DNA of 64,000 bases from Pseudaquabacterium terrae. GTDB lineage: Bacteria > Pseudomonadota > Gammaproteobacteria > Burkholderiales > Burkholderiaceae_C. Shown one piece after another: positions 2,907 through 22,675 of the stretch. Within the stretch, counting starts at the first letter, position 1. The number at the start of each line of letters is the position of its first letter. The notes beneath the pieces are model-generated. The model did no database searches and was not told the origin of the DNA. It saw nothing but the letters and a program-made list of their open reading frames with translations. The position numbers and the translations under genes are program-made. The DNA is taken from positions 1 through 64,000 of the forward strand of contig NZ_JABRWJ010000001.1 in NCBI RefSeq assembly GCF_013266755.1, in the 5' to 3' direction.

Positions 2907-2931
2907 GGTGTTTCTCCTTTTGGCCCCCAAT

Positions 2932-2975
2932 CCCCCCGAGGGGGCGTCGTCGCCTGGGGGCGGCCCGGCGGCGAC
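2932..2975 (-). repeat. Dispersed GC-rich leader repeat, copy A
   Basis: Read on the minus strand, this 44-nt block begins GTCGCCGCCGGGCCGCCCC and ends CCCCCTCGGGGGG. It matches copy B at 29411-29453 (+) at about 40 of 44 positions. Both copies lie in the same orientation directly upstream of a Shine-Dalgarno and start codon. The ends can fold into small GC hairpins. It does not code for protein in a conserved frame. Confidence 0.7.
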
Positions 2976-3144
2976 TGGCAGCGGATGTCTTCGAGTGCGG
3001 CGACTGTGCCCGCGGCGACCTTTCAAACGCCTATCAGGCTCTGGCCGCCCCGGCACCGGGCGCTGGCTCTAAAGCCTCGCTTGCGCGGCGGCGGCGCCGG
3101 CTGCACAGTGGCCCGCTGCGGCAGGGCCGTCAACAAGGAGCTCG

Positions 3145-4416
3145 GTGAACGACAACAAGGTTTCGACGCCGCCGGCGCTGCCGGTGCGGGCCTCCGCACC
3201 CGCGCTGCCGCTGCGGATCTCCGACCTGCGCGGCCTGTCGCGCCTGGGCGTCGAAGGCGTGCTCGGCCTGACCGATGTGGTCGAGGCGATGCACCACACG
3301 ATCGCTTCGCGCGCCGGCATCGTCGGGCCGGCGCCGGCGGGGCGGACCCGCGGCATCACCGGTGCGGTTTACGGCGCAGTGCGCGGCACGACGCGGCTGG
3401 TCGGCCACGCGGCCGATGCGCTGTTCGGCGCACTGCCGCACGGTGGCGAGGCCGACCACCGCTCGCCGCGGCGCGAGGCGACGATCGCCGCACTGAACGG
3501 CGTGTGGGGCGACCACCTGGCCGAGACCGCCAACCCGCTGGCGCTGCCAATGCGGCTGCGCAGCGAGGGCCGCGCGCTGGCGCTGAATGCCGCGTCGCTC
3601 GCCGCGCTGCCGCGCCCGCCGCATGGCCGCCGCCTGCTGGTGCTGGTGCACGGCCTGTGCATGAACGACTTGCAGTGGCAGCGCAAGGGCCATGACCACG
3701 GTTGCTGGCTGGCGCGCGAGCTCGGCTACACACCGCTTTACCTGCACTACAACACCGGCCGCCACGTGTCGCAGAACGGGCGCGACCTGGCCGCGCTGCT
3801 CGAGCGCCTGGTCGCGGGATGGCCGGTGCCGGTGGACGAGCTGGTGCTGCTCGGCCACAGCATGGGCGGCTTGATCGCGCGCAGCGCCTGCCACGCGGCG
3901 ACGCAATCGGACCAGGCCTGGTTGTCGTCGTTGAAGGCGCTGGTCTTCCTCGGCACGCCGCACCATGGCGCGGCGCTGGAGCGCGGCGGCCGGCTCGTCG
4001 ATGCGCTGTTCGGCTTCAGCCCGTATGCCGCGCCGATCGGGCGCGTCGGCACGAGTCGCAGCGCCGGCATCACCGACCTGCGTTTCGGCAACCTGCAAGA
4101 CGCCGACTGGCAAGGCCGCGAGCGCCGCGACCAGCGCCACGACGACCGCCAGCCGACACCGCTGCCCACCGGCGTGCCGGCCTATGCGCTGGCGGGCACG
4201 CTGGCACGGACGCTGCCCGAACGCGCGCCGCGCCTGCGCGACCGGCTGATCGGCGATGGCCTCGTGTCGCCGGCCAGCGCACTCGGCGACCACGACGACC
4301 CGGCGCTCGCGCTCGCGCTGCCGGCGGCGCATCGGCGCGTGCTGACCGACTGCAGCCACTGGGACCTGCTCGACCGCCCCGAGGCCGCTGCGCAACTCTG
4401 CGACTGGTTGCGCTGA
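3145..4416 (+). CDS. Alpha/beta hydrolase (lipase/PGAP1-like)
   Basis: The 423-residue protein has the alpha/beta hydrolase core: LLVLVHGLCMND (oxyanion strand-loop, about 168-179) and GHSMGG (nucleophile elbow Ser near 239). FLGTPHHGA follows, a block typical of PGAP1-like and triacylglycerol lipases. A long N-terminal region (about 1-150) precedes the core. A late DCSHWDLL segment probably supplies the catalytic His. There is no signal peptide, so a cytoplasmic or membrane-peripheral esterase is likely. The GTG start at 3145 follows AAGGAG by 4 nt. The tctD-like gene starts 4 nt after its stop, suggesting cotranscription. Confidence 0.88.
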   Translation: MNDNKVSTPPALPVRASAPALPLRISDLRGLSRLGVEGVLGLTDVVEAMHHTIASRAGIVGPAPAGRTRGITGAVYGAVRGTTRLVGHAADALFGALPHGGEADHRSPRREATIAALNGVWGDHLAETANPLALPMRLRSEGRALALNAASLAALPRPPHGRRLLVLVHGLCMNDLQWQRKGHDHGCWLARELGYTPLYLHYNTGRHVSQNGRDLAALLERLVAGWPVPVDELVLLGHSMGGLIARSACHAATQSDQAWLSSLKALVFLGTPHHGAALERGGRLVDALFGFSPYAAPIGRVGTSRSAGITDLRFGNLQDADWQGRERRDQRHDDRQPTPLPTGVPAYALAGTLARTLPERAPRLRDRLIGDGLVSPASALGDHDDPALALALPAAHRRVLTDCSHWDLLDRPEAAAQLCDWLR

Positions 4417-4420
4417 GCCG

Positions 4421-5146
4421 ATGCGCATCCTGCTGGCCGAGGACGAACACACGCTCGGCGAGTGGCTTGCGAAGGCGCTCGGCCAGGCGGGGTTTCGCGT
4501 CGACTGGCTCGACGACGGCCGGCTGGTCGAGCGCGCGCTGGTCGAGCACGACTACGACGCGCTGGTGCTCGACTTGGGCCTGCCCGGCCGCGGCGGCCAC
4601 GAGATCCTGCGCCGGCTGCGCGCGGCCGACCGGCGCCTGCCTGTTCTGGTGCTGACGGCGCGCGACTCGCTGGCCGAACGGGTCGACACGCTGAACGAAG
4701 GCGCCGACGACTTCCTCGCCAAGCCCTTCGCACTGGCCGAGCTGGAGGCGCGGCTGGTGGCGCTGATCCGCCGCGCGCGCGGCAGCGAGCATCCGCGCTT
4801 CGGCTGCGGGCCGCTGCAGTTCGACGCGGTGACGCGCCAGTTCACGCTCGCCGACGAGGTGCTCGCGCTGTCGCCGCGCGAGCAGGCGCTGCTGCGCGCG
4901 CTGATCTCGAAGTCGGGCGAGCCGCTCGGCCGCCAGCAGCTGCTCGACCGCGTGTTCGCCGACGACGAGGACGTGCAGCCGAGCGCGCTCGACGTGCTGC
5001 TGCACCGGCTGCGCAAGCGGCTCGACGGCAGCGGCGTGCGCATCCACACCTACCGCGGCCTGGGTTACGTGCTGGAGCCCGAGCCGGCGCCGGGGGCGCC
5101 GCTGGCGGGCCCCGTGCGCGATGCAGGCGATGCGGGCGATGCCTGA
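4421..5146 (+). CDS. tctD: OmpR-family response regulator, TctD-like
   Basis: A 241-residue regulator with an N-terminal receiver (phospho-acceptor Asp51 in VLDLGLPG, Thr/Ala switch near 79, Lys101 in LAKPF) and a C-terminal winged helix ending in the YRGLGYVLE hairpin. The overlapping sensor kinase and the TctC-like gene beyond it identify it as TctD-type, which controls uptake of citrate-like acids. ATG 4421 lies 4 nt behind the hydrolase stop. The 3' end overlaps the kinase start by 26 bp, implying translational coupling. Confidence 0.9.
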   Translation: MRILLAEDEHTLGEWLAKALGQAGFRVDWLDDGRLVERALVEHDYDALVLDLGLPGRGGHEILRRLRAADRRLPVLVLTARDSLAERVDTLNEGADDFLAKPFALAELEARLVALIRRARGSEHPRFGCGPLQFDAVTRQFTLADEVLALSPREQALLRALISKSGEPLGRQQLLDRVFADDEDVQPSALDVLLHRLRKRLDGSGVRIHTYRGLGYVLEPEPAPGAPLAGPVRDAGDAGDA

Positions 5147-6530
5147 TCCGGCGCGCCGGCGCGCCAGCCTGCGCACGCGGCTGCTGGTGCTGCTGCTGCC
5201 CGCGCTGGCGCTGCTGGCCGGCGCGGGCCTGTGGCTGACGCGCGCCGATGCCGTGGCCGCTGCAAATGCGGCCTATGACCGCTCGCTGCTCGGCGCGATC
5301 AAGGCGCTCGAGCTGAACGTGTCGACGGCCTCCGGCGGCCTCGCGGTCGAGCTGCCGTACCGGCTGTTCGAGTTCTTCCAGCTGACCGCCAGCGGCACGG
5401 TGCACTTCCGTGTCGCCACCGCCGACGGCCTGGTCGAGATCGGCAGCCCCGACCTGCCGCCGCCGCCGGCACCGCTGCGCAGCGGCGAGCCGCAGTTCTA
5501 CGACGCGGCGTATTTCGGCGAGCCGCTGCGGCTGGGCGTGTTGAAGCGGCCGCTGGAACGGCCACTGGAAGCGCCGCTCGGCGAATCACGCGAGATCGTG
5601 ATCCAGGTCGGCGAGAGCACCGTCTCGCGCGAGCGTTTCACGTCGGCCTTCGTGCGCCGCGCGCTGCAGCGCGACCTGGTGCTGCTGGCGCTGCTGGTGG
5701 TGGCGGTGATCGCCGTGTCGACCGTCGTGCTGCGACCGCTGGCGCGGCTGGCGGCCGACACCCGAGCACGCGCCGCCGACGACCTGCGGCCGCTCGATCC
5801 CGCCGGCCTGCCCGCCGACGTGCTGCCGCTGGTCGATGCGGTGAACCAGCAGCTCGCGCGCAGCGAACAGTTGCTCGACCAGCGCCGCCGCTTCGTCGAC
5901 GACGCGTCGCACCAGCTGCGCACGCCGCTGACGACCTTGCGCGCGCAGCTCGACTACGCGTTGCGCGAAGCCGACCCGGTGCGCGCACGCGGTGCGCTGC
6001 AGGCGCTGTCGGCAGCGCTCGACCAGGCGATCCGCGCGACGAATCAGTTGCTGGTGCTGGCGCGCAGCGATGCTGCGGTACCCCGCCAGGACCCGTTCGA
6101 CCTGGGCGAGCTCGCGCGTGAGGTGGCGCTGCAACTGCTGCCGCTGGCGCGCGAACGCAGCCTCGACTTCGGCCTCGACGTGCCCGAGGACCCACTGCCG
6201 GTGCGCGGCGACCGCGCGCTGCTGCACGAGGCGCTGTTGAACCTGGGCCACAACGCGATCGAGCATGGCCGCGGCGGCGGCACGGTGACCTTGCAGGCCG
6301 CCGCCGATGGCCTGGGCGCGAGCCTTGCGGTGATCGATGATGGTCCGGGCCTGGCGCCTGAAGTCAGCGGCCAGGCCGGTGAACGTTTTGCGAAGAGCCG
6401 CGGCAGCCGCGGCTCGGGCCTCGGCCTGGCGATCGCCAAGACGGTGATCCAGCGGCATCGCGGCCGCCTGCGGCTGGAACCGCGCGACGACGGGCCGGGT
6501 TTGCGCGCGTCGCTGTGGTGGCCACGATGA
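5121..6530 (+). CDS. tctE: Two-component sensor histidine kinase, TctE-like
   Basis: A 469-residue inner-membrane kinase. TM1 is about residues 21-40, followed by a periplasmic domain of about 140 residues resembling the 2CSK_N sensor of TctE-type kinases. TM2 is about 185-205, followed by HAMP and HisKA with the phospho-acceptor His264 in DASHQLRTPL. The ATPase domain shows the N-box (GHNAIEHGR), DDGPGL and GSGLGLAI. In-frame ATGs at 5121, 5130 and 5139 all overlap the regulator gene, so the exact start is uncertain. The stop overlaps the next start as ATGA. Such kinases sense tricarboxylates, often with the help of a TctC/Bug protein. Confidence 0.92.
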   Translation: MQAMRAMPDPARRRASLRTRLLVLLLPALALLAGAGLWLTRADAVAAANAAYDRSLLGAIKALELNVSTASGGLAVELPYRLFEFFQLTASGTVHFRVATADGLVEIGSPDLPPPPAPLRSGEPQFYDAAYFGEPLRLGVLKRPLERPLEAPLGESREIVIQVGESTVSRERFTSAFVRRALQRDLVLLALLVVAVIAVSTVVLRPLARLAADTRARAADDLRPLDPAGLPADVLPLVDAVNQQLARSEQLLDQRRRFVDDASHQLRTPLTTLRAQLDYALREADPVRARGALQALSAALDQAIRATNQLLVLARSDAAVPRQDPFDLGELAREVALQLLPLARERSLDFGLDVPEDPLPVRGDRALLHEALLNLGHNAIEHGRGGGTVTLQAAADGLGASLAVIDDGPGLAPEVSGQAGERFAKSRGSRGSGLGLAIAKTVIQRHRGRLRLEPRDDGPGLRASLWWPR

Positions 6531-7558
6531 CGATGCGTCGCCGCACGCTGCTGCTCGGTGCGCTCACGGCGCCGCCCGCGACGCACGCGCTGCCGCCAGG
6601 TTCGGCGCCGGCGTTGCCAGCGGGGTCTGTGCCGCCGGCCTTGCCACCGGGGGCCGAATGCATCGCCCCGGCCAAGCCCGGCGGCGGCTTCGACCTGTCG
6701 TGCCGGCTCGCGCAGGCCGCGCTGCAACAGGCCGATGCCGCGCGCCCGCTGCTGCCGATCCGCTACCTGCCGGGCGGCATCGGCGCGCTGGCCTACCGCA
6801 CCGCGCTGACGCAGCGCGCGGCCGATGCGGCGGCGCTGGTCGCGTTTTCCAGCGGCACGCTGCTGAACCTGGTGCAGGGCCGCTTCGGCCCGACCCCGCC
6901 GCGCGAGGTGCGCTGGCTCGCCGCGCCGGGCTTCGACCATGGCGTGATCGCCGTGAACCGCGCGGCGCCGTGGCCGACCCTCGGCGCCTTGGTCGAGGCG
7001 CTGCGTGCGCAGCCCAACGCCATCGTCTTCGGCGCCGGCGGCACGATCGGCAGCCAGGACTGGATGAAGGCCGCGCTGCTCGCACGCTCGGCCGGCGTCG
7101 GCCACCGCACGATGCGCTTCGTCGCGTTCGAGGGCGGCGGCGAAGCGGTCGGTGCGCTCGCCGGCCGCCATGTGCAGGTGCTGGCCGGGGATGCGGCCGA
7201 GCTCGCGCATCAGCAGGACGCAGGTGCACCGGTGCGCGTGCTGGCGGTGCTGGCTGACCGCCGCCTGCCCGGCCGCTGGGCGGCTGTGCCCACCGCCCGC
7301 GAACAAGGCTTCGACATCCGCTGGCCGATCCTGCGTGGCTTCTACCTTGGGCCGGCGGTCGACGACGCGGCCTATCACACATGGTCAGCGGCCTTCGAAG
7401 CGGCGTTCGCGGCGCCCGGTTTTGCCGCGTTGCGGCAACGTGCCGGGCTCGAGGCGCCGTCGTTGATCGGCACGCCGCTGCAGGACTTCGTGCAGCGGCA
7501 GCTGGCCGACTACCGCGCACTGACCGACAGTTTCGGCCTGCCGCGGCGCGCGGCGTAA
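6527..7558 (+). CDS. TctC/Bug-like substrate-binding protein coupled to the TctDE sensor
   Basis: A 343-residue exported binding protein. The N-terminus MTMRRRTLLLGALTAPP has a twin-arginine-like signal, then an Ala/Pro-rich spacer and the C.APAKPGGGFDL block that replaces the usual PFxPGG ligand loop. Later RYLPGGIGALAY and FGAGGTIGSQDW match TctC-type binding loops. The start codon overlaps the kinase stop (ATGA), so the protein is made together with TctDE. No tctA/tctB follows; the next gene is a sigma factor. It may act as a ligand-presenting co-sensor rather than a transporter subunit (inference). Confidence 0.88.
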   Translation: MTMRRRTLLLGALTAPPATHALPPGSAPALPAGSVPPALPPGAECIAPAKPGGGFDLSCRLAQAALQQADAARPLLPIRYLPGGIGALAYRTALTQRAADAAALVAFSSGTLLNLVQGRFGPTPPREVRWLAAPGFDHGVIAVNRAAPWPTLGALVEALRAQPNAIVFGAGGTIGSQDWMKAALLARSAGVGHRTMRFVAFEGGGEAVGALAGRHVQVLAGDAAELAHQQDAGAPVRVLAVLADRRLPGRWAAVPTAREQGFDIRWPILRGFYLGPAVDDAAYHTWSAAFEAAFAAPGFAALRQRAGLEAPSLIGTPLQDFVQRQLADYRALTDSFGLPRRAA

Positions 7559-9739: not shown

Positions 9740-10825
9740 CTATTCAAACCGCGCTCGCGCGGTTTCGATGGCCGCTTGCAAGCGGCGGTGCAGGAGCTCG
9801 CGCGCCGGCAGCTCGGTCAGGTACTCGGCGACGTGGATGCCGGCGCTGTCGAGCTCGAGCAGTTCGACCTGTTCCTCGTTCTTCTGGGCGCACAGGATGA
9901 TGCCCAGGGGTGGCAGTTCATCGTCCTGCCGCTCGTGCTTGTCCAGCCAGCGCAGGTACAACTCCATCTGGCTCTTGTAGGCCGACTTGAATCGCCCGAG
10001 CTTCAAGTCCAGCGCGATCAGCCGCTTCAGGCGGCGGTTGTAGAACAGCAGGTCGATGTAGAAGTCCTCGCCGTCGATCTGCAGGCGCTTCTGGCGTGCG
10101 ATGAAGCTGAATCCCGCGCCCATCTCCAGCAGGAAGCCCTCCAGTTCACGCAGGATGGCGTCTTCCAGATCACGCTCGACGTAGCGGTCGGCGACGCCGA
10201 GGAAGTCGAGCACGTACGGGTCCTTGAGCACCAGCGCCGGCGTCAACTCGCCGCGCGCTCGCAGTGCGGCCATTTCCTTCGCGACCACGGCCTCGGGCTG
10301 GCGCGACAGCGCGGTGCGTTCGTAGAGCATCGAGTCGATGCGGGCAGCCAGGGTGCGCACGCTCCAGCCCTCGATCCGGCACATCTCGGCATAGAACTCG
10401 CGTTGCAGCGGCTGCTTCAGCGGCAGCAGCTCGCGGAAGTGCGACCAGCTCAAATGTCGCCACAGCGTGGCGACAATCGCCTCGTCCGGGAAGGCCTCGG
10501 CGAACTGCACCATCCGCCGCAGGTTCTTCTCCTCGAAGCCCCGCCCATACTCGGCGGCCAATTGTCGCGACAGCGTGGCGACAATCTGCTCGCCGTAGTC
10601 GGCCCGGGTGGCGCCCAGAACCTCATCGCGGATGCGCTTGCCGATGCGCCAGTAGAGCACCGTCAGGCTGATGTTCACGGCGACGGCAGCAGCGTGACGA
10701 GCCTCCTGGATCAGCCGCCGCAGATCGGCAAGCAGCGTGTCGCCTGCCGGGGCCGGCGGCGTCGCCTTCACCCTGCGCCGGCTCGGCAAGGTGGTGGCAG
10801 TGGAGCCTTTGCGCGCGGTGACCAT
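9740..10825 (-). CDS. DUF1016/YhcG-type PDDEXK nuclease-domain protein
   Basis: A 361-residue protein with the YhcG architecture. The N-terminal helical DUF1016_N domain (about 25-160) includes the YWRIGKRI and [20 protein letters not shown] segments. The C-terminal PDDEXK nuclease domain (about 185-340) has [22 protein letters not shown], in which an Asp followed by DLK fits the nuclease signature, and a later YLRWLDKHE. In many genomes this family sits inside type I restriction loci, as here. All domains look intact, so it may still work although hsdR and hsdM around it are destroyed. ATG 10825 is 4 nt from the hsdR remnant stop. Confidence 0.88.
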
Positions 10826-11104: not shown

Positions 11105-11974
11105 ATGCCCAGCGCCGCAGCCAGCCCGGTCGACACGCTGACCGAGATCAACATCGACGATCTGTTCGATGCGATCGGCCTGGCCGCCTGGCGCCGCACG
11201 CCGCTGCGGCGGCTGTTGCGCCCGCCGGCGCGGCGCTTCGCCGACATCGCGCACGAGTTCGACGGCGAAGTCGCCGCGCACGGCCTGGCCGAGGGCAGCG
11301 CCTGGATGCTGCGGCGCATGAGCGGCGGCCTCGAGGTGCGCGGGCTGCAGCACGTGCCGGTGCACGGCCCGGTGTGCGTGCTCGCGAACCATCCGGGCAT
11401 GACCGACACGGTGGCGCTGATCGCCAGCCTTGGCGGGCGGCCCGACCTGCGCGTGATCGCGCTCGACCGGCCCTTCCTGCGCGCGCTGCCGGCGGTGGCG
11501 CGGCAGCTGATCTTCGTGCCCGCCGACGACGCGCCCGGCCGCCTGGCGGTGGTGCGCCGCGGCGTGCAGCACCTGAAGGACGGCGGCGCGCTGCTGACCT
11601 TTCCGGCGGCGCGCATCGAGCCGGACCCCGCCGTCTTCGGCGCCCGCCGCGCGCTCGATGCGCTGGCGGACTGGTCGGCGAGCTTCGCGGTGTTCGCGCG
11701 ACTCGTGCCGCAGACGGCGTGCGTGCCGGCGCTGGTCAGCCAGGTGCTGGATGCCGACGCGCAGCGCCATCCGCTGACGCGGTTGCGCCGGCGGCCCGAG
11801 GACCGCGAGAAGCTCGCCGCCGCGCTGCAGGTGTCGATAACGCGTTATCAGCGCGCCAAGGTGCGGGTCAGCTTCGGGCCAGCGCTGCAGGTGGACGCCG
11901 CCGACACGGCGGCGCTGCGCGCGGCGCTGCTGGACCGGATGGCGCGGCTGGTCGACGAAGACGGCCATCGATGA
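11105..11974 (+). CDS. PlsC-family acyltransferase
   Basis: A 289-residue protein of the phospholipid/glycerol acyltransferase family. The catalytic HX4D motif is NHPGMTD near residues 97-103. An [10 protein letters not shown] block follows, and [10 protein letters not shown] occupies the position of the acceptor-binding motif. Typical members acylate lysophosphatidate, but divergent members acylate other acceptors. There is no clear transmembrane anchor. The stop overlaps the next start (ATGA), tying it to the dehydrogenase/PTPS-like/glycosyltransferase cluster and suggesting that a product of that cluster may be acylated (inference). Confidence 0.82.
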
Positions 11975-12957
11975 ACGATCCGCACGACACCGCCCTCGCC
12001 TGCTGGCTCGCCGAGCCCGGCCGCGCCGAGCTGCGCACGCAAGCGCTGCCGCCGCCCGGCGACGGCGAGGTGCGGGTGCGCACGCTGCACAGCGCGATCA
12101 GCCGCGGCACCGAGACGCTGGTGTTCCGCGGCGAGGTGCCGGCGAGCGAATACGCACGCATGCGCGCGCCGTTCCAGGAGGGCGACTTTCCCGGCCCGCT
12201 GAAGTACGGCTACTCAAGCGTCGGCATCGTCGAGCACGGCCCGCCGGCCCTTTGCGGCCGCGCGGTGTTCTGCCTGTATCCGCACCAGACGCGCTATGTC
12301 GTGCCGGCGCATGCCGTCCATGCGCTGCCCGAGGGCGTGCCGCCGGCGCGCGCGGTGCTCACGGCCAACCTCGAGACCGCGGTCAACGCGCTGTGGGATG
12401 CCGCGCCGCGCATCGGCGACCGCATCAGCGTGGTCGGCGGCGGCGCGGTCGGGCTGCTGGTGGCGCGGCTCGCCGGCCGGCTGCCGGGCTGCAGCGTGCA
12501 GCTGGTCGACGTGCAGCCGCAGCGGCGCACGCTCGCCGAACAGCTGGGCGCGGCCTTCGCCCTGCCCGACGACGCGCGCGGCGACGCCGATCTGGTGATC
12601 CACGCCAGCGGCCGCGAAGCGGGCCTGGCCACCGCGCTGCGCCTGGCCGGCTTCGAGGCCACGGTGCTGGAGCTGAGCTGGTACGGCGCGCGCCAAGTCG
12701 GCGTGCCGCTGGGCGAAGCCTTTCATGCGCGGCGGCTGGTGCTGAAGTCGTCGCAGGTCGGGCATGTCGCCGCGGCACAGCGCAGCCGCTGGGATGCGCC
12801 GCGGCGCCTGGCGCTGGCGCTGTCGCTGCTGGCCGATCCGGCGCTCGACGCGCTGGTCACCGACGTTTCTGCCTTTGCCGAGCTGCCGGCGGTGCTGGCG
12901 CGGCTTGCCGCGGGCGGTGCCGAGGGCACTGTCTGCCACCGCATCGACTACGACTGA
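11971..12957 (+). CDS. MDR-superfamily dehydrogenase without obvious zinc ligands
   Basis: A 328-residue medium-chain dehydrogenase/reductase. The N-terminal GroES-like domain reads [15 protein letters not shown] where zinc alcohol dehydrogenases have Cys-Gly-x-Asp, and [10 protein letters not shown] where they have GHE. The structural four-Cys lobe is absent. The Rossmann motif is [11 protein letters not shown] near 152-162, so NAD(P) binding is retained. The SRGTE wording recalls BchC-like and other zinc-free MDR enzymes. Start overlaps the acyltransferase stop and its stop overlaps the PTPS-like start by one base. The substrate is unknown. Confidence 0.85.
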
Positions 12958-13385
12958 TGACGCCCATGTACAGCGTCAACGTCCGCGACCACTTCATGAT
13001 CGCCCACAGCTTCGCCGGCGCGACCTTCGGCCCGGCCCAGCGCCTGCACGGCGCGACCTACGTCGTCGACTGCGAGATGCGGCGCGCGGCGCTCGACAGC
13101 GACGGCGTCGTCGTCGACATCGCGCGCGCGGCGGCACTGCTGCGCAGCGTGCTGGAGGCGATGAATTTCCGCAACCTCGACGACGCGCCCGAGTTCCATG
13201 GCCGCAACACCACCACCGAGTTCCTCGCGCGTTTCGTCTTCGATCGGCTGGCCGGCCGCATCGCCGCCGGCGAGCTCGGCGCGGAAGGTGCGGGCCTCGC
13301 GTCGCTGAAGGTCACGCTGCACGAATCGCATGTCGCCTGGGCGGCGTACGAAGGGCCCCTGCCGGCGCCTTCGGCCGCGGGCTGA
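12957..13385 (+). CDS. 6-pyruvoyl/6-carboxy-tetrahydropterin synthase-like protein with lost catalytic residues
   Basis: A 142-residue T-fold protein related to PTPS/QueD by length, AHSF (His17), the RLHGATY block (His31), [15 protein letters not shown] and [13 protein letters not shown] (Glu123). Against QueD/PTPS the catalytic Cys position is Ala27, the catalytic Asp-His pair is Asn70-Phe71 (MNFRNLD), and the third zinc His is Ala33 (HGA instead of HGH). The usual lyase chemistry on dihydroneopterin triphosphate is therefore unlikely. Two possible starts exist (12957, 12966). It sits between the MDR dehydrogenase and the glycosyltransferase with almost no gap. Confidence 0.85.
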
Positions 13386-13402
13386 CTCGCCGGGGGCGAC
13401 GC

Positions 13403-14470
13403 ATGCGCCGGCTCGTCTTCCTCGTGCCCGGCGATCCGGCAAGCCTGACCGGCGGCTACGGCTACGACCGGGCCATCGTCGCCGGCCTGCGCGAACGCGG
13501 GTGGTCGATCGCCATGCCGGCGCTCGCGGCGAGCTTCCCGTGGCCGGACGCGCCAGCGCTGAACGCTGCCGCGAAAGACGTCGCGGCGATCGACAACGGC
13601 ACGCTCGTCGTCGCCGACGGGCTGGCCTTCGGCGCGCTGCCGGCACTCACCGAGCAGCATGCCGCGCGGCTGCGCTGGGTTGCGCTGGTTCACCATCCGC
13701 TGGCGCTGGAAACGGGGCTCGACGACGCGGCGCGCCGGCAGCTCGCCGACAGCGAGCGCCGCGCGCTGGCCAGCGCGCGCATCGTCATCGTGCCGAGCGC
13801 GGCGACCGCGCGGGCGCTGGCGCCGTACGGCGTGCCGGCCGCGCGCATCCGCATCGTGCCGCCGGGCACCGCACCCGCATCGCTGGCGACCGGATCGGGT
13901 GCCGGCGCCGTCGCGGGGCTCAACTTGCTGTGTGTCGCGACACTGAGTGCACGCAAGGGTCATGCGCTGCTGATCGAGGCGCTGGCCGGCCTGGCCGACC
14001 GCGCCTGGACCTTGCATTGCATCGGCAGCACGACCCGCGACCGGGCCACCGCGGACTCGCTGCGCGGCCTGATCCACGCCCACGGCCTCGCCCATCGCGT
14101 GCACCTGCTGGGCGAGTTGCCCCCCGCCGATCTGCAGACGCACTACAGCCAAGCGGACATCGCCGTGCTGGCCTCGTACTTCGAGGGTTATGGCATGGCG
14201 CTGGCCGAAGCGCTGGCGCATGGCCTGCCGGTGATCGCGACGACGGCCGGCGCGATTCCCGACACGGTGCCGCCTGCTGCCGGCATGCTGGTGCCGCCCG
14301 GCGATGCAGCGGCCTTGCGCGCGGCGCTGCGGCGGGTGTTCGACGAGCCCGCGCTGCGCGCGCAGCTGGCGGCCGGCGCACGCGCGGCGCGCGCCATGCT
14401 GCCGGCCTGGCCACAGGCCGTCGCCGCCTTCGAAGCGGCACTCGACGATGCCGGAAGCCTTCCCCGATGA
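13403..14470 (+). CDS. GT4-family (GT-B) glycosyltransferase
   Basis: A 355-residue glycosyltransferase of the GT-B fold. The N-terminal domain opens with VFLVPGDPASLTGGYGYDR. The C-terminal donor domain has CVATLSARKGHALLIEAL, the HLLGELP turn, and FEGYGMALAEALAHGLPVI, the E-x7-E motif that binds the nucleotide sugar. GT4 enzymes are retaining and use UDP- or GDP-sugars. No membrane segment is seen. It begins 17 nt after the PTPS-like stop and ends overlapping the methyltransferase start (ATGA). The acceptor is unknown; clustering suggests the cluster's small-molecule product. Confidence 0.88.
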   Translation: MRRLVFLVPGDPASLTGGYGYDRAIVAGLRERGWSIAMPALAASFPWPDAPALNAAAKDVAAIDNGTLVVADGLAFGALPALTEQHAARLRWVALVHHPLALETGLDDAARRQLADSERRALASARIVIVPSAATARALAPYGVPAARIRIVPPGTAPASLATGSGAGAVAGLNLLCVATLSARKGHALLIEALAGLADRAWTLHCIGSTTRDRATADSLRGLIHAHGLAHRVHLLGELPPADLQTHYSQADIAVLASYFEGYGMALAEALAHGLPVIATTAGAIPDTVPPAAGMLVPPGDAAALRAALRRVFDEPALRAQLAAGARAARAMLPAWPQAVAAFEAALDDAGSLPR

Positions 14471-15357
14471 CCGGATTCAGCGCCGACTGGCTGCAGCTGC
14501 GCGAGCCCTTCGATGCCGCGGCGCGTGCGGCGGCTGCCGAGGTCGTGGCCTTCGCGACCACGCGCGAACCCGGCGCGGCGCCGTGGCGCATCGTCGACCT
14601 GGCCTGCGGCAGCGGCGCCAACCTGCGCGCGCTGGCGCCGCAGCTCGGCCTGAAGCAGCAGTGGCGGCTGGTCGACCACGACCCGGCGCTGCTGGCCGCG
14701 GTGCCCGAAGCACTCGAGCGCTGGGCCGCGCAGCACGGTCACCAGCTCGCGCTGGATGGCGATCGGGCCTTGCACGGCACGATCCACCTCGCCGGCCGCG
14801 GCTGGTCGGCGAACGTCGCGCGGCAGCGGCTCGACCTGGCGCGCACGCTGGCCACGCTGGCGCTGCCGCGGGGCGGGCTGGTCACCAGCTCGGCCCTGCT
14901 CGACCTCGTGTCCGCGCCGTGGCTGCAGGCGCTGCTCGCGCGCGCCGCCGCCGCACGGGCGACGCTGCTGTGCGCGCTCAGCGTCGACGGCCGCATCGCC
15001 TGGGAGCCCACCGATCCGGCCGATGAGACCGTGCAGGCGCTCTTTGCGCAGCACCAGCACGGCGACAAGGGGTTCGGTGCCGCGCTCGGCCCGCAGGCGG
15101 CGGCGCAGGCCCTGCAGTGGATGGCTGCCGCCGGCTGGCGCACGCGGCAGGCGCCCACCGACTGGCAGATCGATGGCGCCCGCGCACCGGCGCTGCTGCG
15201 CGCGCTGATCGACGGCACCGCCGCCGCGGCGCTCGAGCAGGACCCGGCCGCCGCCGGCACGGTGCGCGCATGGTCGCAGCGTCGGATCGAGTGTCTGCCG
15301 GCGACACGGCTGCGCATCGGCCACCTCGACATCGCCGGCATCCCGCCGCACCGATGA
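14467..15357 (+). CDS. Class I SAM-dependent methyltransferase
   Basis: A 296-residue protein with a Rossmann methyltransferase core. Motif I is VDLACGSGANLRAL (about 43-56), the acidic end of strand 2 is RLVDHDPALL, and a later GGLVTSSALLDLVS resembles motif IV/post-IV. The start overlaps the glycosyltransferase stop, so it is the last gene of the plus-strand run. It ends 4 nt from the convergent RibD-like gene. The substrate is unknown; position suggests methylation of the same molecule handled by the upstream glycosyltransferase (inference). Confidence 0.85.
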   Translation: MTGFSADWLQLREPFDAAARAAAAEVVAFATTREPGAAPWRIVDLACGSGANLRALAPQLGLKQQWRLVDHDPALLAAVPEALERWAAQHGHQLALDGDRALHGTIHLAGRGWSANVARQRLDLARTLATLALPRGGLVTSSALLDLVSAPWLQALLARAAAARATLLCALSVDGRIAWEPTDPADETVQALFAQHQHGDKGFGAALGPQAAAQALQWMAAAGWRTRQAPTDWQIDGARAPALLRALIDGTAAAALEQDPAAAGTVRAWSQRRIECLPATRLRIGHLDIAGIPPHR

Positions 15358-15361
15358 GGCG

Positions 15362-16210
15362 CTAACTCCGCAGATCCACGTCCCAGAGGCGGTCGCTGCC
15401 GACGTTGAAGACGCGGCAGCGCGGCCGCGCGCAATCGGCCAGCCGCTCGGACCCCGCGAAGGACAGGCCGCGCCGGCCATCGCCGATCAGCACCGGGGCG
15501 ATCGACAGGTGCAGCCGGTCGAGGCGGCGCTGCGCGAGGAAACGCGACACCGTCACGCCGCCGCCTTCGACGAGCACGCGCCGGCAGCCGCGCGCCTGCA
15601 GCGCGGCGAGCGCGGCGGCCGCGTCCGGCGTGCCGTCGTCGCGCAGCAGCCCGGGCACTGCCAGCACGCGCGCCGCGCCGGCCAGCGCTGCAGCGCGCGC
15701 TTGCCAGCGGGCGTCGCACAGCCACAGCGTCGGCACGTCGGTGTCGGTGAACACGTGGGCACTGGCGACGCAGCCGGCCAGGCCGAGCCGCGGATCGAAC
15801 AGCACGCGCAGCGGATTTGGGCCGGCGGCGTGGCGCGTCGTCAGCCGCGGGTTGTCGATCGCCACCGTGCCGGCGCCAACGATCACCGCATCGCACAGCG
15901 CGCGCAGCCGGTGCAGGTGGCACAGCACCTCGGGGCCGCTGACGAAGGCCGAGTCGCCGCAGCGTGTGGCGATGCAGCCGTCCAGGCTCTGGCCGAGCTG
16001 CGCGATGACCCAGGGCGGGCCCTCGGCACGCGCATCGAGCAAGGGCTTGAACAGCGCCCACTGCTCGCGCGCGGCGTCGTCCCAGGGCCCGTCGCCGAGC
16101 TGCCAGCCAGCGGCGGCATCGTGCCGCACGCTGCCGGCCGGCAAAGACGGCGTGCCCGGCCCGCGCCAGCGCGCGATCGCCACCAGGCACGGCCACAGGT
16201 CTTCGAACAT
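15362..16210 (-). CDS. RibD C-terminal-type (DHFR-fold) reductase
   Basis: A 282-residue protein matching the reductase half of RibD, without the deaminase domain. QLGQSLDGCIAT is the first strand and loop, VIVGAGTVAIDNPRLT the central block, and VLVEGGGVTVSRFL the last conserved loop. Such enzymes use NADPH to reduce the ribosyl carbonyl of an aminopyrimidine, or related pterin-type substrates. About 65 extra N-terminal residues have no recognised domain. ATG 16210 has AGGA about 8 nt upstream; an in-frame ATG at 16219 is also possible. It faces the methyltransferase with a 4-nt gap, completing the putative pterin-like cluster. Confidence 0.85.
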   Translation of the reverse strand: MFEDLWPCLVAIARWRGPGTPSLPAGSVRHDAAAGWQLGDGPWDDAAREQWALFKPLLDARAEGPPWVIAQLGQSLDGCIATRCGDSAFVSGPEVLCHLHRLRALCDAVIVGAGTVAIDNPRLTTRHAAGPNPLRVLFDPRLGLAGCVASAHVFTDTDVPTLWLCDARWQARAAALAGAARVLAVPGLLRDDGTPDAAAALAALQARGCRRVLVEGGGVTVSRFLAQRRLDRLHLSIAPVLIGDGRRGLSFAGSERLADCARPRCRVFNVGSDRLWDVDLRS

Positions 16211-16294
16211 CGCGGTCATCCTAACCGTCGCCGGCGGTCTATCCTCGCGGCCTTGGCCGATCGGGCCCATCGTGCCAAAAGGGGAGCCTGCAGC

Positions 16295-17683: not shown

Positions 17684-19717
17684 TCAGGGCCGCGCGATCG
17701 AGTCGCTGGTCTCGGTGTTGTTCTGCGGCATGTAGGTGTAGGTGTTGCGGGTGACGCTGTTGACGGTGAAGGTGAACACGCCGCTGCCGCGGACGCTGGG
17801 CGACAGGAAGCGCGCAACGCCGGTGCTGTTGGTGCTCAGCACCACCGACGGCCGCGTGACCAGGCCGCTCCAGGCACCGTTGACCGTCGCGCCGACCAGC
17901 GGCAGGCCGTTGCCATCGACCACCTTGACCGCCGCGACGCCCGAAGCCGCGCCGCCGACGCCGATTGCCAGGCTCATGGCGATGTCGGAGACGCGCATCG
18001 TCTTCCCGGTTCCGCTCGCCGGATCGACGGTGATCGTCACGGCACTCACCGAGCTCAGGCCGAGCGCGTCGGTGACGGTCAACTGCGCGTTGTAGCTGCC
18101 GGGGTTGCTGTACAGGTGCGTCGCAGTGCTGCCGCTGGCCGACGCCCCGTCGCCGAAGGTCCAGCCGTAGGCGACGATGCTGCCGTCCGGATCGCTGGAG
18201 CCGGTGCCGGAGAAGTTGACCGTGAACGGGGCCGGGCCGCGCACGGCCGAGGTGCTGATCACTGCCACCGGCGCCTGGTTGACGGCGGTCGTGAAGCTCA
18301 CGGTGAGCGCGTACTGGCCGATGCTGCCGTAGGCCGGATAACCGGTCGTGCCGGCCTTGCCGGTGCCCTGCACCGACAGGTAGTAGGTGCCGTTGGCCGG
18401 CAGCGTGACGGTGATGCCGGCGGTCAGTGTGTCGACCGGGTTGGCCGTCGCCAGCACGTTGTTGGCGCCGTCCCGCAGCGTCAGCAAGGCGTCGAGGTTG
18501 GCCGAGCGCACCGCCGGGGTCAGCGTCAGCGTGGCCGGACCGGCCCCCGCGCTGAACGAGAACACGTCGACATCGGTCGGCCGCTCGATCACGCCCTCGG
18601 CGGCGGCGCTGCTGATGCCGGCGTTGCTGGTGGCGTTGAGCGCGGTCGCCGTCGCGTGGGTGCTGCCGTGGTCGTCGATGCGCAGCGGCAGGCCGTTGGA
18701 CTGCATCACGACGTAGTCGTCCTGCGGGTTGCTGGCGCCGCTGTACTCGCCCTTGCTCCACTGCACCAGCGCCTGGTAGTAGCCGACGCCCATGATCGGC
18801 GCCCAGCCGGTCGCGCCGCTGCCGTGGCCCGAGTAGTAGCCGGCGGTCGCGGTACCGTCGTGGCCCAGGCCCATGTTGTGGCCGGCCTCGTGCGAGATCG
18901 CCTCGGCGACGTTCTTCTCGCCGGCGCCGAGCGCGTCATAGAACACCAGCGCGGGCTTGTAGTAGTCGCTCGTGTCGTCGTAGATGCCGAGGTAGGCGAC
19001 GCCGCCACAGCCGCAGCTGTAGACGCCGGTGCGGTGCGTGATCAGCACGGTGGTGCCGAAGATGTCGTCGGAGGAGTTGCTGCGCGTGATGCGGTCCGGG
19101 CTCGGCGGCTCGGTCGTGACGTCGACATCGAACGCGGCGAAGTCCTCGGACACGCGCTGCCAGATGTACTGGATGCGCTGCAGCTCGGCGGTCGAGAAAG
19201 TGCCCGGCTGGCCATCCATGTCGAAGGCCTGCGCATTGATGGTGCCGTTGGTGTTCCACACCGTTCCGGTCAGCGTCGCGCCGCGGAAGTTCAGGTAGAT
19301 CGTGCGCTTGGCGCCGGCGCGGCTGTGCAGCAGGAAGGTCTGGTCCAGCGGTGCGAGCGTGCCGTCGAGCAGGCCGGAGGTCGGCAGCGGCGCGGGGCTG
19401 GCCGGCAGCGGCGTGTCGATCTCTTCGATGAAGAAGGCGCGGCCGCGCTGGTCGAGGCGCAGGCGCCTGTCGCGCAGCAGCATCGCCTTGAACTCGTCGG
19501 CCGACTTGCCGTAGTAGGTCGCGACCTCGCCCAGCCGGCTGCCCAGCGCGTCGATCGCGCGCTGGCCGCCGACCTGGCGTTCGGCCAGCGCGACCACCGG
19601 GAAGACTCCCTTGTTGACGTGCGGCACCACATCTGCCGGCGGCCCCGCCGCGGCAACCGGGCCGATCAGGCCCAGCGCAAGCAACACCGGACCGAGCAAT
19701 CGGGGAATCTGAATCAT
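17684..19717 (-). CDS. Secreted metzincin-type zinc metalloprotease with PKD domain
   Basis: A 677-residue exported protein. A signal peptide covers about residues 1-24. The protease domain carries HEAGHNMGLGHD (His276, Glu277, His280, His286), the extended zinc motif of metzincins, with GSGATGWAPIMG containing the Met-turn. Downstream lie a pre-peptidase-like beta domain (about 360-480), a PKD domain (about 485-580, ending YGWTFGDGASASGS to VTVDPAS) and a terminal Ig-like domain. It is probably secreted to degrade protein outside the cell. ATG 19717 was chosen because it opens a clean signal peptide; a longer start at 19810 exists but adds no recognisable domain. Confidence 0.9.
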   Translation of the reverse strand: MIQIPRLLGPVLLALGLIGPVAAAGPPADVVPHVNKGVFPVVALAERQVGGQRAIDALGSRLGEVATYYGKSADEFKAMLLRDRRLRLDQRGRAFFIEEIDTPLPASPAPLPTSGLLDGTLAPLDQTFLLHSRAGAKRTIYLNFRGATLTGTVWNTNGTINAQAFDMDGQPGTFSTAELQRIQYIWQRVSEDFAAFDVDVTTEPPSPDRITRSNSSDDIFGTTVLITHRTGVYSCGCGGVAYLGIYDDTSDYYKPALVFYDALGAGEKNVAEAISHEAGHNMGLGHDGTATAGYYSGHGSGATGWAPIMGVGYYQALVQWSKGEYSGASNPQDDYVVMQSNGLPLRIDDHGSTHATATALNATSNAGISSAAAEGVIERPTDVDVFSFSAGAGPATLTLTPAVRSANLDALLTLRDGANNVLATANPVDTLTAGITVTLPANGTYYLSVQGTGKAGTTGYPAYGSIGQYALTVSFTTAVNQAPVAVISTSAVRGPAPFTVNFSGTGSSDPDGSIVAYGWTFGDGASASGSTATHLYSNPGSYNAQLTVTDALGLSSVSAVTITVDPASGTGKTMRVSDIAMSLAIGVGGAASGVAAVKVVDGNGLPLVGATVNGAWSGLVTRPSVVLSTNSTGVARFLSPSVRGSGVFTFTVNSVTRNTYTYMPQNNTETSDSIARP

Positions 19718-19942
19718 GTAGCGGCTCTCGAACAGCTGACCAATGAAAGCAGGCGCGGGTGCGCCGACGGCGGCGATGGTAGGGGGGTGCGCCGATCTGG
19801 CGCAGCGCAATTGCGAAACGTTACCGACGCAATGGTTCGTGCACCACGCCGTCGCCCTGGGCGTGCACTACGCACGGCCGGCGCGGCCGGCGGTCGGCTA
19901 TAGGGGCCAGAGGGGCTATGGGGCGACCGCGGGCGCGGCGTC
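19718..19942. other. Intergenic region between protease and MalT-like regulator
   Basis: About 225 bp between two minus-strand genes. It should contain the protease promoter and the end of the regulator transcript. No strong terminator hairpin or operator was recognised by eye. Confidence 0.4.
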
Positions 19943-22675
19943 TCAGGCGCCGCGCAGATACCAGGCCGCGGCCTGGCCGCGCGACTGCAGCCCGAGCTTG
20001 TCGAGCACGTTGGCGACGTGGCGCTTGACGGTGTGCGGGCTGATGTCGAGCGCCCGCGCGATCAGCTTGTTGCTGGTGCCGGTGGCGATCAGCGCCAGCA
20101 CCTCGGCCTCGCGCGAGGTCAGCCCGGCGTCCGCGGTGGCCACGCTATCCGCCGCTGGAGTCGCGTCGCCCGCGGCCGGCTCGGCGGACGCGGCGGGCGC
20201 GCGCTCGATCGGCGCGTCTGCGGACCCGTCGCGCAGGTCCGCGGCGGTCGACGCGGCGGTCTGCAGCAGCAGCTGCTGCGCCGCCGGCAGGCGCGCGCCC
20301 CAGGCGGTGTCGGCCAGCGTGCGCAGCGCCGCCGCGCCGGCCATCCAGGCGTGGCCGAGGTCACCGTCGCGTTGCATGCGTTCGAGCGCCGGGCCCACCG
20401 CCTGCGCGGCGAGGTCGGGCTCGCCGCAGTGCACCCAGGCTTCGGCACAACGCAGGCGCAGCTCGACGTGATGGGCCATCACGTCCATCTCGTGCAGCTT
20501 GGGCAGCAAGGTCTGCAGGCCGTCGGCGGCGGCGCGCCAGCGGCCGCTGGCCGCCGCGTGACGCGCGCGCACGGCGATCGCGCGCGGGTTCTGGTACTGC
20601 GTGCTGCGCAGCGGGTCTTCCTTCAGGAATGCGGCCCAGTGCGCGATCACCTCGGGCCCGGCGCCGAGCGTATGGTTCATGCGCACGCCGTAGACGGCGA
20701 CCTGGTGCTGCCACAGCCGCAGCCGTTCCGGAGCGGCGCCGGACTCGCGCGCCAGCATCGCATCCAGGCGCCGGCCCAGCTCGTCGGCGCGGCCGCAGAT
20801 CGCGCACTCGATCAGCCGGAACAGCGTGATCGCGATCTCCATCTCGCCGGAGCAGGCGAGCCAGCGCAGATCGGCCTCGGCTTGCACGATGTCGGCGCGG
20901 GCCTCGTCGATGCGGCCGGCCCACAGGCGCACGAAGGCGCGCTGCGCGATCACTTCGCCGCGCATCGGCAGCGGCCGGCTGCCGATGCGCGCGAGCGCGC
21001 CGTCGACATAACGCTCGAACCACTGGCGCATGCCGGGCAGCGTGCTCCAGTTCGGCGCCGGCACGCATTCCCACCATTCGAACAGGCTCGCGCCGCGCTG
21101 CAGCGACTCGACCACCTCCTGGTACAGCGCCGGCAACGCATGCAGCTGGCCGCGCCGGAAGTGCTGCGTCGCATCGGCCATCAGCAGCAGGCGACGGGTG
21201 TGCGGCGCCAGCGGCTCGGCGTGCAGCCCGGCAATCAGCCGCTCGGCCTCGGCGTTGCGGTCCATCGCGTACAGCGCCATCGGCAGCAGCGCCTGCGCAT
21301 GCTGGCGCTCGGCTTGCTGGTCCTGCGCCGCCGCGTGCGCCAGCGCGGCGGCGAAGTGGCGCTCCATCGCCGGCCAGTCCCAGCGCAGCAGCGCCACCGT
21401 GCCGGCCAGGCGTTCGAGCCGGGCCGATGCGGCGCGCCAGCCGGCATCGAACTGCTCGATCAGCCGCTGCACCTCGCCAACGCCGCCGCCGACGAAGAGC
21501 TCCGGCGCGGCGGCATCGAGCGCCGCCTCGGCGCCGGACCAGTCGCCGGCGCGCAGCAGGTAGCCGATGCGCCGCGCCGGGTCGGGCTCGGACGCGGCAG
21601 CGCGGTGCAGCAGCGGATTCAGCTCGCCGGGCAGGCGGCGCTCGAGCCGCGCCTCGAGCGCGGTGCGGAACAGGTCATGCAGCACCAGCGTGCGTTCGGC
21701 GGTCGCCAGCGTGGTGACGAAGAGGCCGCGGCGCTCGATGTCGTCGAGCAGGTCGGCGGCGTTCCAGGCGCCGCTGACGGCCGCCGCCCGGGCCGCGGTG
21801 AGCTCGGGCAGCACGGCGCAGCGCAGCAGGAAGTCGTGCAGCGGCGCCGGCAGCGCGTCGAGCACCTCGCTGGTCAGGTAGTCGAACAGGTAGCGCTCGG
21901 TCAGCGCACCGGCGGCGGCCAGCCCCGGCCGCGACTTCAGCGCCACCAGCGTCAGCCGCAGGCCGGCCGGCCAGCCCTGCGTGCGCTCGATCAGCGCCGT
22001 GGCATTCGCGCCCGCCGCGGCCAGGCCTTCGGCGGCGATCAGCGCGCCCGCCTCGTCGCTGCTGAAGCGCAGCGCCGCGGTATCGAACTCGGCCAGCTCG
22101 TCGGCGGCGCGCCAGCGCGCGAGCGACAGCGCCGGCAGCTCGCGGCTCGACAGCACCAGCGTCCAGTTGCGCGGCAGCCGCTCGATCAGCTGGTCGCCGA
22201 GCGCGACCAGCGCGCGGTCGGCGACGCGGTGCAGGTCCTCCACCACGATCACGCCATGCGCGACGTCGGCATGCGCCATCGCGGTGACCAGCTCGTCGAG
22301 CGCGCGCCGCGCACCGTCGTCGCCGGCGCTGACGTGCGGCACCAGGGCCTCGGGCAGCGTGCGCCACGGCAGGTCGAAGGGCTCGAGCGCGGCGGCCAGG
22401 CAGGCGAACAGCCGCGCCGCGTCGTCCCCGGCATCCAGCGACACCCACGCCAGCGCCGTGCCGGCGGGCAGCGCCGCGGCCAGCGAGGCCAGCGCCGTCG
22501 TCTTGCCGTAGCCGGCCGGCGCGTTCAGCAGCACGATCCGGCGCGTCAGCGCGGCGTCGAGCAGCGCGGCATCGAGCGCCGGCCGTTCGATGCGGCGCGC
22601 ACGTGGGCGCGCGGCCTGGATCTTGGTGGCGGCGAAACGCGGCGGATCGGTGCGCGGGGCGTGGGCGGTGGACAT
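19943..22675 (-). CDS. MalT-like LuxR-family transcriptional regulator (STAND ATPase)
   Basis: A 910-residue regulator of the MalT/LAL class. An N-terminal P-loop NTPase has Walker A APAGYGKTT at about 52-60 and a Walker B-like GVIVVEDLHRV near 140. A long alpha-helical, tetratricopeptide-like middle follows. The C-terminal LuxR helix-turn-helix reads LTSREAEVLALIATGTSNKLIARALDIS and so on, the last about 60 residues. Such STAND proteins oligomerise and activate genes after binding inducer and ATP. The target is unknown; the nearest gene in the same direction is the secreted protease. ATG 22675 opens the frame; its leader contains a GC-rich repeat-like segment. Confidence 0.92.
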   Translation of the reverse strand: MSTAHAPRTDPPRFAATKIQAARPRARRIERPALDAALLDAALTRRIVLLNAPAGYGKTTALASLAAALPAGTALAWVSLDAGDDAARLFACLAAALEPFDLPWRTLPEALVPHVSAGDDGARRALDELVTAMAHADVAHGVIVVEDLHRVADRALVALGDQLIERLPRNWTLVLSSRELPALSLARWRAADELAEFDTAALRFSSDEAGALIAAEGLAAAGANATALIERTQGWPAGLRLTLVALKSRPGLAAAGALTERYLFDYLTSEVLDALPAPLHDFLLRCAVLPELTAARAAAVSGAWNAADLLDDIERRGLFVTTLATAERTLVLHDLFRTALEARLERRLPGELNPLLHRAAASEPDPARRIGYLLRAGDWSGAEAALDAAAPELFVGGGVGEVQRLIEQFDAGWRAASARLERLAGTVALLRWDWPAMERHFAAALAHAAAQDQQAERQHAQALLPMALYAMDRNAEAERLIAGLHAEPLAPHTRRLLLMADATQHFRRGQLHALPALYQEVVESLQRGASLFEWWECVPAPNWSTLPGMRQWFERYVDGALARIGSRPLPMRGEVIAQRAFVRLWAGRIDEARADIVQAEADLRWLACSGEMEIAITLFRLIECAICGRADELGRRLDAMLARESGAAPERLRLWQHQVAVYGVRMNHTLGAGPEVIAHWAAFLKEDPLRSTQYQNPRAIAVRARHAAASGRWRAAADGLQTLLPKLHEMDVMAHHVELRLRCAEAWVHCGEPDLAAQAVGPALERMQRDGDLGHAWMAGAAALRTLADTAWGARLPAAQQLLLQTAASTAADLRDGSADAPIERAPAASAEPAAGDATPAADSVATADAGLTSREAEVLALIATGTSNKLIARALDISPHTVKRHVANVLDKLGLQSRGQAAAWYLRGA

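Follow-up and report, generated by a model that had tools for sequence, protein, structure and literature searches.

The FGPAQ signature marks the subfamily PTPS-IV of COG0720, whose genes were reported in 2017 to lie in a neighbourhood with guanosine triphosphate (GTP) cyclohydrolase II (GCH II) and RibD_C proteins, the families named in the relevant part of that article being PF00925 and PF01872 (AGeNNT, PMC5445326). Zallot and co-workers attributed PTPS-IV to cofactor F420 on what the passage concerned gives as unpublished grounds (PMC5041015), and the literature passages available on PTPS-IV or its member SCO6650 give no established function. A second point of comparison comes from the Rhizobiales, in which the creatininase-family BrbF proteins of Sinorhizobium and Brucella have been proven to act as formamidases on the formylaminopyrimidine that arises from GTP, as described in the sections of PMC9478397 that treat them. 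Here we examine a six-gene locus built around a PTPS-like protein in the first 64,000 nucleotides of contig NZ_JABRWJ010000001.1 of Pseudaquabacterium terrae (hereafter the window, meaning this whole stretch). We propose, with a probability of roughly 60%, that it represents a compact local version of a widely distributed cluster for a GTP-derived, glycosylated, methylated and probably envelope-linked metabolite.

The cluster is real, widely conserved, uncharacterised in the open-access literature searched, and partly noticed before as PTPS-IV. The initial annotation of this DNA knew of no characterised pathway that has this set of genes; this stands insofar as no report of a product was found in the open-access literature, and is qualified by the neighbourhood of PTPS-IV with GCH II and RibD_C already in print, at least in the part of the article that bears on it (PMC5445326).

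The locus and its conservation

Six genes had been listed, five in a plus-strand run with overlaps or gaps of 17 nucleotides or less and a RibD-type gene facing them 4 nucleotides away, and the open reading frame coordinates agree. The family labels also agree with Pfam and NCBIfam, though the acyltransferase, the medium-chain dehydrogenase/reductase (MDR) and the methyltransferase fall under the Pfam cut-offs. The genes are:

11105 to 11974, plus strand: PlsC/OlsF-like acyltransferase, 289 amino acids, lineage-specific; PF01553 at 22.2 bits (just under the cut-off of 23), HX4D-type motif
11971 to 12957, plus strand: MDR dehydrogenase, apparently zinc-less, 328 amino acids, a distant relative of BchC and threonine dehydrogenase by Pfam, NCBIfam and residues
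12957 to 13385, plus strand: PTPS-IV-type T-fold protein, 142 amino acids, with FGPAQ and HGAT; PF01242 at 2.6e-24, PDB entry 3d7j at 5.2e-48
13403 to 14470, plus strand: glycosyltransferase of family 4 (GT4), 355 amino acids; PF00534 (Glycos_transf_1) at 2.3e-30
14467 to 15357, plus strand: class I S-adenosylmethionine (SAM)-dependent methyltransferase, 296 amino acids; AlphaFold2 model and Foldseek
15362 to 16219, minus strand: RibD_C-type reductase without a deaminase domain, 285 amino acids; RibD_C at 6.9e-34, match to 6p8c

The acyltransferase and MDR genes overlap by 4 nucleotides, the MDR and PTPS-like genes by 1 and the GT4 and methyltransferase genes by 4, while 17 nucleotides separate the PTPS-like from the GT4 gene; the RibD_C gene is convergent with this run, tail to tail across a 4-nucleotide gap. 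Start codons are predicted, and that of the RibD_C gene is placed at 16219, 9 nucleotides beyond the earlier 16210.

Relatives were found with a four-sequence alignment of PTPS-like proteins, giving at least 588 confirmed stretches; the best 80 of these (the named loci) stand nearest to the query, and conservation counts among them are therefore favoured. The PTPS-like gene adjoins the MDR gene in 78 of the 80 and the GT4 gene in 78, the GT4 and methyltransferase genes are neighbours in 75, the order MDR-PTPS-GT4-methyltransferase is complete in 73, and a RibD gene lies nearby in 64. Room on both sides was available in 73 of the 80, and 69 of those 73 have the complete four-gene core. Across 84 loci the MDR was found in 82, GT4 in 82, the methyltransferase in 79, GCH II in 20 and the acyltransferase in 5; because of this last count the acyltransferase, originally included as part of the cluster, was rejected as a core gene and is a peripheral, lineage-specific extra. 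The PTPS-like gene occurs in 3 of 21 genomes of the window's genus, and the two carriers besides the window show the same acyltransferase-to-RibD order.

A less biased survey covered 398 Pseudomonadota genomes, the window's own included, scoring per genome at most 10 PTPS, 6 creatininase and 5 MDR candidates, with creatininase and MDR matches taken in to E 1e-50. Strong PTPS-IV matches (E<1e-40, a line set post hoc, there being no match between 5e-42 and 3e-14) and MDR matches classed as strong (E<1e-50) fell in the identical 27 of the 398 genomes, the lists being compared by eye, and in all 27 the two genes are at most 130 bases apart. At E 0.001 the PTPS search matched 125 of the 398 genomes, through more distant PTPS-family paralogs. 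Over 66 loci the five core proteins show correlated pairwise distances, with r of 0.69-0.79 (permutation maxima 0.17-0.23), which partly reflects shared species history. The gene order is conserved over several phyla, and by record titles the pathway occurs in at least four; carriers are found in Pseudomonadota and in some Acidobacteriota, Gemmatimonadota and Actinomycetota, and include culturable laboratory species such as Methylosinus trichosporium OB3b, in which plasmid pOB3b1 bears a compact copy. No match to the PTPS-like protein was found in phages at E 1e-10. The cluster is widely conserved and not a local accident: the genes travel together, in the four-gene core as in the shared genomes, as the initial annotation had expected, and a separate known pathway for each gene was rejected on co-occurrence and synteny, no such assignment having been found.

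The PTPS-like protein

Judged from its residues, the PTPS-like protein fits the published subfamily PTPS-IV: FGPAQ is present in 81 of 84 PTPS-like proteins, the window copy included, and the closest PDB match, 3d7j, is SCO6650 of Streptomyces coelicolor. The authors of that structure reportedly found neither zinc nor PTPS activity. In an alignment with a PTPS-family paralog of the same genome, the motif CxxxHGH is absent from every member (0 of 84); A27 stands at the Cys position and A33 at the second His of HGH (84 of 84 each), while H17 and H31 are retained in all. The catalytic Asp position is occupied by Asn in 81, Asp in 2 and Ser in 1, and the catalytic His position by F, Y, L or M in 84 of 84, with His in none. 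H12, N84, T86, E88 and E123 are invariant, the two glutamates in 84 of 84. For these aligned residues we assume the zinc-binding and catalytic roles that they have in PTPS. With QueD and the types PTPS-I and PTPS-II the protein shares the T-fold together with H17 and H31, and it differs from them in the loss of CxxxHGH; a QueD or queuosine role was rejected on the residues, and the protein is predicted not to be a competent PTPS or QueD. To PTPS-IV as represented by SCO6650 the likeness extends over sequence, FGPAQ and the neighbourhood with GCH II and RibD_C given in the relevant part of PMC5445326. The genome's other PTPS-family protein (PF01242, 121 amino acids) reads SxxxHGH and likewise has no usual QueD cysteine.

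Since all 84 proteins lack the catalytic Cys and the third His, a pterin product cannot be taken as proven. Of the pterin-like product of GTP metabolism suggested initially, the GTP origin has been strengthened by the RibD_C, GCH II and creatininase genes discussed below, and the pterin has not been established. One might alternatively envisage a soluble, 6-substituted glycosylated pterin, like the cyanobacterial pterin glycosides, derived from what FolE makes, in which case PTPS-IV would act on derivatives of dihydroneopterin. The retention of the acidic site residues E88 and E123 and the presence of GT4 and methyltransferase genes would suit such a product, but the two alanine replacements would not, the cyclohydrolase of the clusters is GCH II (riboflavin type) rather than FolE, and a 6-substituted pterin needs no ribotide reductase; we regard this alternative as unlikely.

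GTP chemistry of the cluster

The RibD_C protein of the window has the reductase domain only, without the deaminase domain of bifunctional RibD. Its best PDB match, 6p8c (2.1e-20), was deposited as 2,5-diamino-6-ribosylamino-4(3H)-pyrimidinone 5'-phosphate reductase, and it scores 92.9 bits against TIGR01508, the archaeal-type diaminopyrimidine ribotide reductase, under the cut-off of 186.45. It was rejected as the housekeeping RibD, since the window's genome has another, full-length RibD at a different site.

As to the suggestion that a RibA/FolE-type cyclohydrolase gene might co-occur in other genomes, the outcome is positive in part: 19 of the 80 named loci have GCH II at a distance of up to about 10 kb, each with RibD, and there is none in the window's cluster. 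C220, C231 and C233 of the cluster GCH II, which we take to be its zinc ligands, are invariant in 11 of 11 aligned proteins. At the position that presumably decides, as Tyr or Met, whether the formyl group is kept, the cluster enzymes have Tyr in all 19 readable loci; in two Streptomyces plasmid clusters (L216, L217) a GCH II near a creatininase gene has Met instead, and this would explain the hydrolase there if the presumed role of the residue holds. In this respect the two plasmid clusters resemble the SCO6655-type GCH II, said to stop at the formylated intermediate, and the 19 Tyr enzymes of the remaining loci differ from it. A cluster creatininase (L080) was considered as mycofactocin MftE and rejected at 122.4 bits against a cut-off of 172.

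The presence of GCH II and a creatininase-family hydrolase in the fuller clusters, together with RibD_C, supports GTP-derived chemistry, and the zinc cysteines of GCH II, the likeness of the RibD_C protein and the known BrbF activity together suggest a ribitylaminopyrimidine start. With the split start of riboflavin synthesis in archaea and rhizobia (GCH III/ArfB; BrbF) the fuller clusters share a creatininase-fold hydrolase, a single-domain reductase and a GTP-opening enzyme; they differ in carrying MDR, GT4 and methyltransferase genes rather than lumazine synthase, and the window's cluster differs further in having no hydrolase. Alternatively, the locus might be an auxiliary riboflavin or lumazine branch, providing a secreted flavin precursor, with the remaining genes as passengers, since GCH II, RibD_C and a hydrolase of the creatininase/BrbF type act early in the riboflavin pathway in the account of PMC9478397 as far as it covers them. 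We hold this to be very unlikely: all 8 genomes examined for it have a full-length housekeeping RibD, neither lumazine synthase nor riboflavin synthase turned up among the identified recurrent neighbour families (some open reading frames being unassigned), and the MDR, GT4 and methyltransferase genes far outnumber GCH II across the 84 loci.

Cofactor F420 is likewise built from a ribitylaminopyrimidine, and we know of no role for GT4, methyltransferase or MDR enzymes in its established synthesis. If PTPS-IV acts in F420 biosynthesis, the assignment made on unpublished grounds in the passage of PMC5041015, the cluster might be an F420-related pathway. Yet CofH (TIGR03551), of FO synthase, scored above the curated threshold in 1 of the 30 genomes with the cluster; one further carrier has a split match under the cut-off, ten others have weak matches like most control genomes, and none was found in the three carriers of the window's genus. 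Because so few carriers have a CofH above the cut-off, an F420 pathway was rejected as very unlikely.

Envelope-associated neighbours

Further neighbour families were sought by tblastn with queries from 13 reference stretches and identified with Pfam and NCBIfam, some recurrent open reading frames remaining unassigned. Among the 80 named loci they comprise a CDP-alcohol phosphatidyltransferase (54), a sulfatase-like membrane enzyme (32), YceI (29), an LPG_synthase_TM flippase-like protein (23), an FkbM methyltransferase (23) and the creatininase (21). Four aspartates of the CDP-alcohol phosphatidyltransferase, presumably its characteristic motif, are invariant in 10 of 10 aligned proteins. The sulfatase-like protein (560 residues) is predicted by AlphaFold and Foldseek to have a fold like PbgA, LtaP and EptC of the alkaline-phosphatase superfamily, with a pLDDT of 77.9 and a TM-score on the query of only 0.28-0.36 over the seven matches that fell below 0.001. 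At least one envelope-type gene is present in 46 of the 54 named loci spanning more than 20 kb, counting any of the CDP-alcohol phosphatidyltransferase, sulfatase-like, YceI, flippase-like or acyltransferase genes. Family 2 or MdoH glycosyltransferases were also seen beside some loci.

Upstream of the MDR gene the window has the acyltransferase gene, as do both congeners and two further loci of Burkholderiales, and 48 of the 80 named loci have a divergent CDP-alcohol phosphatidyltransferase gene there; the two were found together in none of the 80 named loci and in none of the 5 acyltransferase-bearing stretches. As both are lipid-attaching families, this may be read as an exchange of anchors, for which the acyltransferase sample is 5 loci. 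Alternatively, the whole might be an envelope glycolipid or polysaccharide cluster into which the T-fold and RibD_C proteins were recruited for unrelated chemistry, as the phosphatidyltransferase, LtaP/EptC-like, flippase-like, YceI, acyltransferase and glycosyltransferase genes beside some loci could indicate. However, some of the same clusters carry GCH II with intact zinc cysteines, and the core of MDR, PTPS, GT4, methyltransferase and RibD also occurs without any tested envelope family (e.g., L012, L015 and L016), which leaves this alternative with little probability.

Proposed pathway

In the pathway that we favour, leading from GTP to an envelope-linked metabolite, GCH II would open GTP to a (formyl)aminopyrimidine ribotide, being cluster-encoded elsewhere and here presumably supplied by the housekeeping enzyme, and where needed a creatininase-family hydrolase would deformylate the ribotide. 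The RibD_C reductase would then turn the ribosyl into a ribityl chain, the T-fold site of PTPS-IV might bind the pyrimidine or pteridine ring for non-PTPS chemistry or substrate positioning, and the MDR, GT4 and methyltransferase enzymes would contribute a redox step, a sugar and a methyl group. The product would probably be attached to the membrane or envelope, via the acyltransferase here and elsewhere via the CDP-alcohol phosphatidyltransferase with the LtaS/EptC-like enzyme. While gene content, order, co-occurrence and the lost catalytic residues are observations, the individual reactions, their order and the product are what we infer from them; a ribitylaminopyrimidine core is as possible as a pterin core.

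Several findings weigh against this pathway. The one GCH II found in the window's genome is on another contig, so that supply by the housekeeping enzyme is an assumption; no creatininase of the cluster type was found in that genome, and creatininases at 1e-50 were seen in 51 of the 371 genomes that lack a strong PTPS-IV match as against 19 of the 27 that have one, so that the creatininase was rejected as an obligatory partner. Given the Tyr in 19 of 19 cluster enzymes, many may need no deformylase, and the many clusters with both a Tyr GCH II and a creatininase do not fit the simple Met/formyl explanation. Two more distant BrbF homologues did not complement in the experiments covered by the available part of PMC9478397, and the formamidase role is therefore not simply extendable. 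On the side of the envelope, the cluster-type CDP-alcohol phosphatidyltransferase was not found genome-wide in the three carriers of the window's genus, the window's own genome among them; a strong match occurs in 8 of 24 PTPS-IV carriers examined, making envelope linkage less than universal, and this enzyme and the acyltransferase are both missing from 23 stretches with the MDR gene, among which are some short contigs. Solitary PTPS-IV genes also exist on two Streptomyces plasmids, and the titles and abstract starts of the open-access literature yielded no characterised product and no study of the product of this pathway.

We speculate further, and quite tentatively, that the product may represent a new class of compound, a membrane-anchored, glycosylated and methylated pteridine or ribityl-pyrimidine serving as a lipid-linked redox or signalling cofactor in about 7% of sampled Pseudomonadota (27/398) and in some Acidobacteriota, Gemmatimonadota and Actinomycetota, its T-fold protein, which lacks the PTPS residues, having new chemistry and its anchor being swapped between phosphatidyl-type and acyl by lineage. 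If the pathway is conserved over at least four phyla, bacteria would share a widespread small molecule for which no report was found, and the cluster offers a starting point for a product search in its genes, its carrier strains and GTP as the likely precursor.

Other enzymes of the locus

The acyltransferase reads NHPGMTD at the position of HX4D, which we take to be the acyltransferase motif. Against ADH_zinc_N (PF00107) the MDR protein scores 27.5 bits, under the cut-off of 31.8; PF08240 is not among its Pfam matches to E 0.1, where a weak ADH_N_2 match (E 0.058) is found, and KYGYSSVG stands in place of the GHE motif, presumably the hallmark of zinc MDRs. BchC, its best NCBIfam match, was rejected as an identity at 56.4 bits against a cut-off of 291.25. 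The methyltransferase scores 21.2 bits against Methyltransf_25, under the cut-off of 27, and in its AlphaFold model (pLDDT 96.2) it folds like a class I SAM methyltransferase. Foldseek matches the model to enzymes of that class, among them 3mgg, GtmA, OxaG and TleD, at E values from 8e-11 upwards; the best matches, several from natural-product pathways, have TM-scores on the query of 0.38-0.55. We hold the label secure because a confident model matches class I methyltransferases.

Plasmid copies and surrounding genes

The PTPS-IV gene was found on 19 plasmid records; of 9 examined, 7 have the MDR gene adjacent and 2, both from Streptomyces, are solitary (L213, 9004-9402; L215, 9004-9429), lying near cupin, MBL-fold and BTAD-regulator genes with no MDR or GT4 gene in the stretch. 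The plasmid records annotate the PTPS-like protein as '6-carboxytetrahydropterin synthase' and the MDR as 'zinc-binding alcohol dehydrogenase', and by residue content both names look wrong. A cytochrome b gene with a possible redox role lies inside the cluster of a Thiodictyon plasmid (L212, 11534-12091); cytochrome b561 was rejected as a steady partner, with tblastn matches in 5 of 85 stretches.

A DUF1016/YhcG PDDEXK nuclease gene (9740-10825) immediately precedes the cluster in the window, and on the far side are a large protein that resembles metalloproteases and carries PKD and PPC domains (17684-19810) and a LuxR-family regulator of 910 amino acids with a weak match to STAND-type nucleoside triphosphatases (19943-22675). 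Farther upstream, at 1917-7558, an esterase-like gene and a two-component regulator pair lie between two TctC-type tricarboxylate receptors.

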